This document shows positions 61,085 through 64,000 of a DNA stretch of 64,000 bases, one piece after another. This DNA is from Mrakia gelida (taxonomy: Eukaryota > Basidiomycota > Tremellomycetes > Cystofilobasidiales > Mrakiaceae), in assembly GCA_024345305.1 (NCBI GenBank), contig BRON01000009.1, positions 682,001-746,000 on the forward strand. The letters run 5' to 3'. The notes below the pieces were generated by a model that saw nothing but the letters and a program-made list of their open reading frames with translations, did no database searches and was not told the DNA's origin. Position numbers and translations under genes: made by a program. Each line of letters begins with the position of its first letter. Position 1 is the first letter of the stretch.

Positions 61085-64000
61085 CTACCACCTGTTACCC
61101 CCTCCTCCTCCCTGCTCGCAAAGAAGAAAATGACGAAGAAGGAAGGGAAGGGTCAGCGGCGGTTCCGACTAGACGACGCGAAGCCCAAGATAGCGGTGAA
61201 AGATCTCAAGTGCAAGACCGAGAGAAAAGTCTACTCACTCCGTAACCTCCTCCTCCGCCGCCGTCTTGGGTACAGAAAGAAGCAGAAGAATCAGGTCAGT
61301 AAAGGTCGCGAGAAAGGGGAAGGGGGAGCGCTCGCTGTGAAGTCTCGTCGAACGAGATCGTCCAGCGGCCTCTCGTCACTTACAACTCCCAGAGTAGGAA
61401 CTGCAGGATCCGCCACTCCCAGCAGAGTAGCCGCCTCCGTAGCTGTTGCCAGCGTAAGAGCCGCCATCTACGAGAGAGGCGTTGTCGACGAAGGGGGGAG
61501 GGGGAGTTCGGAAGGTGAAGTCCGTCAGCAGCGTGTTGAGGGCTACCGACTCGCAGCAGCAAGGGAAAATCTAGTGGACGAGAGCGGAGAAGGGAAACTA
61601 TACTCACAACCTCCTCCTCCCTGAGAAGCCGAGAGAAAGAAGGACAGGTCAGCAAACCGATTCGAAGAAGACGCGTCGCACGACGCGGCGCAAAACAAAG
61701 ATCAAGTAACTCACTCCTCCATATCCTCCACCTCGCCCGCCTCGTCCTCCGCCTCGTCCTCCTCCACCTCGCCCTCCTCCTCCTCCGTACATGGCCATCT
61801 CCTCAAGCTCCCGAGGGACCTCGGACTTGGACTCCTTCAGGATACCAACGAGCTCTCGAGCGGACTTCGAGTTGTCGGCGGCTGAGGAACGAGATCAAGC
61901 GAGAGCGAAGGTCAGTTTCACGCGTTCGAGAAGGGTAGTAGGTGAGATGAGAACGTACTGAAGTAGGTGTAAGAAGTTCCGGTGGTTCCGGCTCGACCAG
62001 TTCGTCCAATTCTGCGAGGGAAAGGAAGGGGCGGAGGTCAGCTCGCGCGTTCGATTGAAGATGCAGCAGGTCGAGAGGAGGAGGATAGAGACTCACCGGT
62101 GGATGTAATCCTCGCAGTTGTTAGGGAAATCGTAGTTGATAACGTACTTGATATCCTTGACACTGGAAGAGGGGAAGAAGAAGGGAGGGGAAAGTCAGCG
62201 ACGATTTCGAGGAGCTCGAGACGAGAAAGAAGGGAAAGAGGGAAGAGATACGTACTCTGAAAAAGGTCAAACCAAGGCAGGAAAATGCGATGGAGGGGGA
62301 TGAGATTGACGGTTTGAAGGGAAGGGGAGGAGGGAAGAGAGTCAACAACGAGTCGAGAAGGGAAGCGAGTGCAAAGCTATCGAGCGAGAACTAAGCTAGG
62401 CTAATCTATGTCGACCTCTCCTAAACCTCACGAGACGAACGAAGGAAGGTAGCGAAGAGAGAAAGAAAGAGAGATGAGACTAGCGAGCGACTTCATGGGG
62501 TGCGAAGGATCGTCCGGTTCGTCTCGTCTCGCCCTCCTCTCCTCCTCGCGCGCTTCCTCAAACGAACGAACGCTAAAGTAAAGGGAAAGAAAGCTAAACA
62601 GAAGACCAACGTCTACCGTCTTCGAATGCCACCATCTCCGAAGAAACGGGGCAGGATCGAGGAAAGCAGAAGCGGACGAAAACGAAAACGCGAAGAGGAG
62701 TCCGATTCGAAGTCAAGGACAGAACGTCCCAACCAAAACCGAAGCTCCTCGCGAGATGATCTCCTGTTAGTTTCCTTTGCTCGCTCGCTCCCCGAGGTTG
62801 AACGCGCCTGGCCTGATCGAGGGAAGGCAGCGGATGGTCTCGATGTCGGATGGGAGGAGGGGGCTGAACGACCGTCGAGTCGATCCAGCCAGCGAGAGCT
62901 CGAGAGGAGACTTGTTTCCGAGCGAGGCGATTTCGATCCAATCGACCCGAGATCGCCGGTTCCTCGATATCTTGAGCTGGGAGCAGAACGTCGACGAATC
63001 CACGAGAGGTCGAAGGAGCGCACGCGAAGGAAAGATAATCTCGAAGGGGTGGTCTCGAAGAAGGAACGCGTGAGCGAGCCGTTCGAAAGCCCCTTGGGAA
63101 GAGAGATCTGATTCCAAAGCAGCAGCGTCCGTCGGTGTCTCGAGAGATCCGCTTGGAAGAGTTCTGACCATGCTCTTGAAGGTAGAGGAGGACGGTCGGG
63201 CGTTGAAGAGGAACGAAGGCCCGTGGAAACGTCTCGTCGAGGTCGAAGGTGTCGCTGTTGAAGCTAAAAGCTAGGAGATGAGCGAGAACCTATACTTACC
63301 GAGACCTCGGGAGGCAACCTAGAAGGATGGATAGAAGGTCAGTAAAGGTTCGAGAAGGAAGGCGAGAGAGAAGGACGAACGTCGGTGGCAATCATGATGG
63401 GCGATCGTCCAGACTTGAACTCTCCAAGAACCCAATCTCGCTCCTGCTGCTGCTTGTCTCCGTGAATAGCGAGCGCAGGCCATCCGTCCTGTCGAAGGTA
63501 CTTGGTGATGTCGTCGGCGACTCGCTTGGTAGCGGTGAAGATGATGACCTTAGCGTTCTCGTTCGAGATGGTGTCGAGGTGCTTGACGAGCTTTCCTCGC
63601 TTCTCGAAGTCGGTGCAAACCTCGACGAGCTGCTTGACGTTGTGGTTGGCAGAGAGCTCCATGGATCCGATGTTGACCTGGATGGCGTCGGTAAGGAAAT
63701 CGGCGGCGAGTCGCTGAACCTCCTTGGGCCAGGTGGCCGAGAAGAGGAGAGTCTGTCGGTCAGGTCGGATCTGAGCGACGATCTTCCTGATCTGAGGCTC
63801 GAAACCCATATCGAGCATTCGGTCCTGGAAGAGGAGAAGGCGTAAAAGAAGGTCAGCGACGACAGAAAGGAAGAATCGAAGCTCGGACGGGACAAGAAAC
63901 GAAGGACTCACGGCCTCGTCCATGACCAAGTAGGTAACCCTTCGGAGGTTGACCTTTCCGGACTCGAGCATGTCGATAAGTCGTCCGGGGGTGGCGACGA
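61085..64000 (-). CDS. DBP2: DEAD-box RNA helicase Dbp2 (p68/DDX5 type), 5' end outside window
   Basis: A nuclear RNA helicase for mRNP assembly and rRNA processing. From the right edge: [20 protein letters not shown], motif [15 protein letters not shown] (an intron lies inside the motif codons), [11 protein letters not shown], the recA-2 region [18 protein letters not shown] and [20 protein letters not shown]. Then motif [20 protein letters not shown] and motif [22 protein letters not shown]. The tail [20 protein letters not shown] leads into an RGG/GGYGG domain made by several tiny exons, ending NRW with TAG at 61085. The D of RGLD is spelled only by a 1-nt exon (62256) between a 1,043-nt intron and a 93-nt intron. 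The last exons are 61608-61620 (13 nt), 61239-61264 (26 nt) and 61085-61111 (27 nt). Confidence 0.95.
61608..61620 (-). other. DBP2: 13-nt micro-exon in the DBP2 glycine tail
   Basis: Minus strand GGAGGAGGAGGTT between CTTCTCAG and GTGAGT. It encodes GGG and part of a Tyr codon. Confidence 0.75.
62256..62256 (-). other. DBP2: Single-nucleotide exon of DBP2
   Basis: The minus strand reads CCTTTTTCAG-A-GTACGTATCT. The preceding exon ends CTC G (63300), and the following exon (from 62162) starts TGTCAAGGATATC. Only the inserted A gives CTC GAT GTC AAG GAT ATC (L D V K D I), the invariant Dbp2 sequence. Confidence 0.75.
62257..63299 (-). other. DBP2: 1,043-nt intron of DBP2 in motif V
   Basis: Donor GTAAGT after ...GGTCTCG, acceptor TTTTTCAG before the 1-nt exon. 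Ten times the local norm. Baker's and fission yeast DBP2 also have a long intron in the 3' half that mediates autoregulation in baker's yeast. Confidence 0.75.

Follow-up and report, generated by a model that had tools for sequence, protein, structure and literature searches.

Single-nucleotide exons have already been described in the nuclear genes APC11, VPS55, and CYP621A. In plant APC11, a single A exon was proved both by cDNA and by base change (PMC4674806, PMC8831610), and for plant VPS55, likewise a conserved gene with a 1-nt exon, forms with and without the exon have been described (PMC8831610). In the fungus Fusarium, the ascomycete P450 gene CYP621A carries a one-nucleotide G exon within a total intron of 139 nt in F. 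graminearum; its flanking phase-1 and phase-2 exons cannot be joined directly, the base lies as AG-N-GT within a conserved motif, and the exon is backed by 18 RNA reads and 20 orthologues (PMC12940212). A single-base cox1 exon is furthermore named in a title among papers on placozoan or fungal mitochondrial genomes. In the open-license literature on one-nucleotide exons, none of the titles listed named DBP2.

Related splicing behavior is known from other systems. Stwintrons and recursive splicing proceed through consecutive reactions on overlapping or nested sites, in which a split splice signal is reassembled or the end of an exon undergoes a second cut (PMC8469720, PMC9024468, PMC6224609). 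Trichoderma Xlr2 contains a fungal microexon, the inclusion of which alters the protein made and the regulation of which is reported (PMC11121469). For DBP2/DDX5, a long intron that is single elsewhere has been described; intron 2 of Schizosaccharomyces pombe dbp2 is spliced poorly and is called conserved in position and length, and work cited there suggests autoregulation of DBP2 in Saccharomyces cerevisiae (PMC4695336).

Here, we describe a putative single-nucleotide exon, A62256, in DBP2 of the basidiomycete Mrakia gelida, and two further likely cases from the same genome, which would be new additions to the nuclear genes named above. Like the exon of APC11, A62256 is an A between AG and GT, is essential for the frame, and lies in a conserved housekeeping gene; the candidate branch point of the preceding intron is 44 nt upstream, the same distance as the putative one in APC11. 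It shares with VPS55 the one-nucleotide size and the conserved gene, and with CYP621A the fungal host, the unjoinable flanking phases, and the position of AG-N-GT within a conserved motif. Unlike CYP621A, it is an A exon in a basidiomycete core gene and follows a 1,043-nt intron, and in contrast to both the plant APC11 exon with its cDNA proof and CYP621A, it is known from sequence alone. The 3' part of the otherwise single long DBP2 intron appears here as a second intron, with one base in between, and where stwintrons rebuild a signal, the DBP2 arrangement would leave one coding base. The original prediction had called such exons rare and mentioned one reported case in Arabidopsis; plant VPS55 (PMC8831610) and Fusarium CYP621A (PMC12940212) are to be added.

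The DBP2 gene and the frame around A62256

The window, i.e., the entire 64,000-nt stretch of DNA analyzed, ends within a DBP2 gene on the minus strand, and sequence past the window end was fetched in order to obtain a full-length model. The complete model comprises 18 introns and encodes 583 amino acids plus stop, with the ATG at 65506 (window numbering, outside the window end) and the stop at 61085. Among solved structures, the closest relative of the product was yeast Dbp2 (8ark, E value 2.3e-205), ahead of DDX17 (5.2e-179), and the helicase core was complete and nearest to Dbp2. The features relevant here are as follows (window positions).

61085..64000, minus strand: in-window part of DBP2 (DDX5/p68-type DEAD-box helicase), from the 18-intron model and the yeast Dbp2 match
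63300..63318, minus strand: upstream exon GTTGCCTCCCGAGGTCTCG, 19 nt, ending with the first base of an Asp codon (sequence and model)
62257..63299, minus strand: intron A, 1,043 nt, GTAAGTATAG...CTTTTTCAG (gene model, splice scores)
62300..62306, minus strand: ATCTCAT, the top-scoring candidate branch site in intron A, with the branch A 44 nt before the intron end; weak, 10th percentile
62259..62376, minus strand: AG-free stretch of 118 nt 5' of the intron A acceptor (224 introns: median 42, 95% 103)
62256..62256, minus strand: putative one-base exon A, second position of the Asp codon in RGLD (frame, scores, rarity, homology)
62163..62255, minus strand: intron B, 93 nt, GTACGTATCT...CTTCCAG (gene model, splice scores)
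62194..62200, minus strand: branch site of intron B, CGCTGAC, branch A 32 nt before the end; 85th percentile
62097..62162, minus strand: downstream exon TGTCAAGGATATCAAGTACGTTATC..., 66 nt, beginning TGTCAAGGATATC... (gene model)
62572..62572, minus strand: competing one-nucleotide candidate C (tttactttag-C-gttcgttc), in frame, giving Ala; probably a decoy

The exon coordinates and phases given in the original prediction were correct: exon 63300-63318 ends CTC/G, followed by GTAAGT, and the next coding exon spans 62162-62097. With 1,315 coding nt 5' of A62256, the upstream part ends in phase 1, while TGTC opens the downstream exon; hence, one extra base is required to keep the 583-amino-acid frame. 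Direct joining of the flanking exons gives VASRGLVSRISS..., which is out of frame and runs into a stop after 492 amino acids, bearing out the predicted frameshift upon skipping. G plus A plus T yields the Asp codon of RGLD, helicase motif V. The predicted spliced junction would be GGTCTCG-A-TGTCAAGG with the exon and GGTCTCG-TGTCAAGG in the skipped form. Owing to the 118-nt AG-free zone, an exon using the donor at 62255 must be 1 nt long or else 121 nt or more, while sizes of 2 to 120 nt are impossible. The 121-nt version was rejected by eye, as it runs into a TGA.

Homologues and public gene models

Which base is added can be read from homologues. A protein search scored 8,000 candidates sharing most words, from which 120 homologues were listed; after leaving out nine broken models and two insect proteins, 109 sequences were aligned. 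The Asp of the motif V column was present in 109 of 109 aligned homologues, as had been claimed for Dbp2/p68 proteins, and the added base must therefore be A. An intact RG[LI]DV[KRDE][DG][VI] motif with no insertion was found in 111 of the 120 listed models. Among the matches listed, the best ten non-insect homologues were 80 to 85% identical to the DBP2 product. When the 109 homologues were placed in a FastTree tree, this DBP2 was basal in an 18-sequence clade (own sequence counted; support, 0.97), the named members of which are Tremellomycetes.

The remaining nine of the 120 listed Dbp2 models (P0010, P0030, P0033, P0074, P0094, P0106, P0108, P0115, and P0118) were broken at or just past the A62256 junction. 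Seven of them lacked RG[LI]D, and in six of these seven, which come from Ceratobasidium, Bondarzewia, Rhizoctonia, and Lentinula, the residue preceding VKD was D, Y, Y, Y, H, and D. Since D, Y, and H codons all have A as middle base, this pattern fits a downstream exon ATGTC that was joined to a wrong exon. We infer an ancestral downstream exon beginning with ATGTC, from which the A has become separated in this fungus. A long intron is present in this DBP2, and its position may be conserved, judging by the public models broken here rather than by DNA; if so, intron A would be the counterpart of the long intron that other species have in DBP2. When genome_contigs and viral_contigs, both collections without fungal genomes, were searched with a degenerate pattern for the downstream exon, there were 0 matches.

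As further observations on these models, that from Saitozyma (P0033) lacks exactly the Asp, and those from Kwoniella newhampshirensis (P0010) and Dioszegia (P0030) are shortened at the A62256 junction.

Splice-site strength and rarity

A small gene finder was trained on 264 kb of the genome (200 kb plus the window) on both strands. For comparison, we used 224 filtered introns with coding flanks from the same genome, which had a median length of 89 nt (5 to 95%, 68 to 179 nt; 1st percentile, 52 nt). The first splice matrices drew on the other 17 introns of DBP2, with intron B among them, and the final matrices were built without introns A and B. The acceptor and donor of A62256, called perfect in the original prediction, turned out to be ordinary to weak: the acceptor ranked at the 53rd percentile of the 224 introns, and the intronic part of the donor GTACGTAT at about the 10th, or at the 4th with the post-splice context CGA. 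Nothing about the length, branch site, or acceptor of intron B was unusual, and the CGCTGAC branch point and CTTCCAG acceptor that had been assigned to it are indeed there. Branch sites were scanned at distances of 8 to 75 nt; GTTTGAC at 10 nt was rejected as the branch site of intron A, because in the 131 introns containing just one CTRAC, this motif never lay at ≤12 nt.

Within the 1,137-nt interval, only two AG-N-GT sites occurred, at A62256 and C62572, leaving A62256 as the sole AG-A-GT, in line with the statement that only this A is available. A62256 also ranked first among 496 candidate internal exons of 0 to 200 nt when scored by acceptor, branch site, and donor, in a ranking that used neither frame nor homology. 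The next three candidates all start at 63254, with scores of 13.1 to 13.4 versus 14.2 for A62256. Among the eight best candidates of suitable length, A62256 alone gave RGLDVKD.

Comparable sites were rare. The motif YYYYYYCAG-A-GTNMGT (YYYYYYCAGAGTNMGT) matched 16 times on both strands of the 34.86-Mb genome (reversed control, 8 times), from which ∼0.0003 chance matches are expected on a single strand of the 1,137-nt interval. Of 578 AG-A-GT sites in 528 kb of strand, only one reached both observed splice scores, and this was A62256 itself. With any middle base, one further site was as good in both scores (C9:540967), and a summed score as high was reached at four sites, namely A62256, C9:540967, window position 32387 (plus strand), and C62572. 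By eye, C9:540967 (AG-C-GT) was dismissed as a decoy within a normal intron of eIF3G.

Unprompted, the gene finder put a 1-nt exon at 62256. Elsewhere in the 264 kb, it called three more exons of 1 nt, of which at least one was wrong, as well as many other tiny exons. Other settings kept A62256 but added a false 30-nt exon to intron A, and destroying the donor or the acceptor of A62256 cost just 4.6 score units. The gene finder alone is not decisive for A62256; the case is carried by frame and homology. Frame, homology, splice score, and rarity agree with the claim that a one-nucleotide exon is required at this junction, and we put the probability that DBP2 truly has a one-base exon at A62256 at roughly 0.93, as judged from the genomic letters.

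Further likely one-nucleotide exons in the genome

A strict AG-N-GT motif matched 71 times in the 34.86-Mb genome (16 A, 19 G, 27 C, and 9 T). The reversed control pattern gave 47 matches (8, 13, 17, and 9 for A, G, C, and T), so that many of the 71 must be due to chance. Twenty matches were examined, comprising all 16 of type A, 3 of the 19 of type G, 1 of the 27 of type C, and none of the 9 of type T. Three of the 20 were judged to be real, and the other 17 were judged by gene finder or eye only. One rejected match (C4:2121891) proved by eye to be a mimic, formed by a 23-nt exon of a GFO/IDH/MocA-type oxidoreductase gene ending TTCAGA/GTACGT, and another candidate (L045) was dismissed because its introns would have just 46 and 47 nt, which is below the 1st percentile of 52 nt. 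The two candidates retained in addition to A62256 are the following.

C6:343180, plus strand: second likely one-nucleotide exon (A), in a gene for an UNC-93-like transporter (frame, homology)
C4:2063162, plus strand: third likely case, a single G that opens the Val codon of VTDSA in a gene for an alkaline phosphatase

At C6:343180, the sequence reads ...TTCTTTGG, then A, then GGAACTATCTGC, and the first intron has 106 nt and CACTGAC at 41, the second 79 nt and GGCTAAT at 23. Destroying the donor and the acceptor cost the gene finder 20 and 26 units, respectively. The product is UNC-93-like (PF05978), and all 117 homologues that cover the junction (120 listed of 678) were gap-free over 28 residues. 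Any base keeps the Gly codon at this junction; thus, it is the frame alone that speaks for the exon.

At C4:2063162, ...GATTCGTTT is followed by G and then by TCACCGACAGC, giving SFVTDSAAAA; the first intron has 89 nt and TGCTGAC at 37, the second 82 nt and CGCTGAC at 24. This parse was guided by homology; the gene finder called the same one-base exon with a different upstream donor, in the wrong frame, and lost ∼13 units without the exon. The junction was covered by 6 of the 24 listed homologues. Five of these six were gap-free, while the sixth had a 2-residue gap just upstream, and Val was present in five of the six. Solved phosphatases align through the junction, 2iuc without gap and the best match, 3a52, with two extra residues before Val. 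Based on this sequence evidence, the one-nucleotide exons of the UNC-93-like and phosphatase genes are both likely.

Alternative explanations for the DBP2 junction

The arrangement could be simulated by an assembly error, a possibility already raised in the original prediction. An A missing between 62163 and 62162 would restore CAGATGTC (CTTCCAG/ATGTC), and a single ordinary intron of 1,136 nt would remain. Such an error would agree with the description of a single long dbp2 intron for S. pombe, S. cerevisiae, and higher eukaryotes (PMC4695336), and the D, Y, or H before VKD in six of the seven public models without RG[LI]D would also fit an exon start of ATGTC. However, there is no homopolymer at the site, the rest of the 1,752-nt coding sequence is intact, and AG-A-GT together with an ordinary 93-nt intron would have to be a coincidence of ∼0.0003. 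Moreover, a one-nucleotide exon is apparently required in two further genes of this fungus, which makes an assembly error a poor explanation. We therefore consider a lost base very unlikely.

Less probable still is that another exon within the long intron supplies the base, either C62572 or a longer cassette exon of 3n+1 nt. C62572 is an AG-C-GT site with scores of 5.3 for the acceptor and 6.2 for the donor, but it has no usable branch site (−0.64), and its product would read RGLAV, with Ala in place of the Asp that is invariant in the aligned homologues. Two exons that begin at 63254, of 40 and 187 nt, reach 13.2 and 13.4, against 14.2 for A62256, but would add 13 and 62 residues after RGL, against the uninserted motif of 111 of the 120 listed models. 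These points speak against the idea that the base comes from elsewhere; minor or poison use is possible. The letters CTCG/...CAGAG/TACGT further allow a parse as a stwintron of type [D1,2], in which an internal intron ends at an overlapping AG (CAGAG) and, together with the final base of the preceding exon, restores the donor G/TACGT. Its product, CTC/TGTC, would be out of frame and without the Asp, which makes this parse the least credible of all. A single-nucleotide exon at A62256 is accordingly the preferred reading.

Proposed splicing order, origin, and regulation

With A62256 as an exon, it would be flanked by two U2-type introns, one of 1,043 nt at the presumed place of the conserved DBP2 intron and an ordinary one of 93 nt. 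As acceptor and donor are one base apart, U2AF/U2 and U1 should not occupy both at once; U1 on GTACGT would overlap U2AF on CTTTTTCAG. Such overlapping sites imply that introns A and B would be removed in succession, resembling recursive splicing with one base left. Most likely, intron B, being short and having a strong branch site and acceptor, would be taken out first, generating CAG/ATGTC, the presumed ancestral exon start. Removal of intron A, long and with a weak branch site, would then be the slow step that sets the yield. Inclusion of A62256 would be the sole route supplying the Asp codon of motif V.

As to the origin, an intron may have been gained one base inside the exon. Alternatively, the A next to the acceptor may have been lost, with a chance AG-A-GT taking over, as proposed for Fusarium (PMC12940212). 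The second option appears to fit better, since intron B has strong acceptor signals and the branch site of intron A is weak. DNA searches of the organism's own genome found no copies of intron B besides its own locus at E ≤ 0.001.

Wrong products were modeled on the sequence. The skipped form leaves 4 junctions downstream of its stop, retention of intron A leads to a stop after 447 amino acids with 7 junctions downstream, and retention of intron B to a stop after 458 amino acids with 6 junctions downstream; all skipped or retained products lose the end of the helicase core. Given premature stops with junctions downstream, these RNAs should be unproductive and would look like targets of nonsense-mediated decay. 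By analogy with yeasts, unproductive DBP2 RNAs could be a route of autoregulation. On the regulated long intron of DBP2/DDX5, PMC4695336 cites Barta and Iggo (1995).

Beyond the exon itself, inclusion of A62256 might act as a regulated on/off switch that limits the Dbp2 level, an extension of the main reading that we regard as doubtful. The truncation of all three wrong products and the weak branch site in the long intron A would suit a switch. In S. pombe, dbp2 intron 2 is retained under stress, which lowers dbp2 (PMC4695336), and the contact between U1 and the 5' splice site is named as a place of action of DDX5/Dbp2 (PMC12511879). However, retention of intron A alone would regulate equally well, with no role needed for the exon, and the UNC-93-like and phosphatase exons suggest that such exons also occur in genes that are not known to be autoregulated. 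Inclusion of A62256 as itself the regulated step is possible.

It is similarly speculative that this lineage reuses single-nucleotide exons in at least three unrelated genes, with sequential, recursive-like removal of the introns, and that the DBP2 case is a frame switch in the autoregulatory intron of a helicase acting at 5' splice sites. If true, one-nucleotide exons would be less exceptional, namely a recurring feature overlooked by gene models. The DBP2 site would then be a natural substrate for asking how the spliceosome deals with an acceptor and a donor when only one of them can be occupied at a time, and whether DBP2 output is governed by the order of removal. From the broken public models, there is also a lead that odd splicing at this DBP2 junction may extend to other species.

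No RNA families were matched in positions 60000-64000 at E ≤ 1. The DBP2 gene is very rich in introns, and other tiny exons of 13, 14, 15, and 19 nt were observed.
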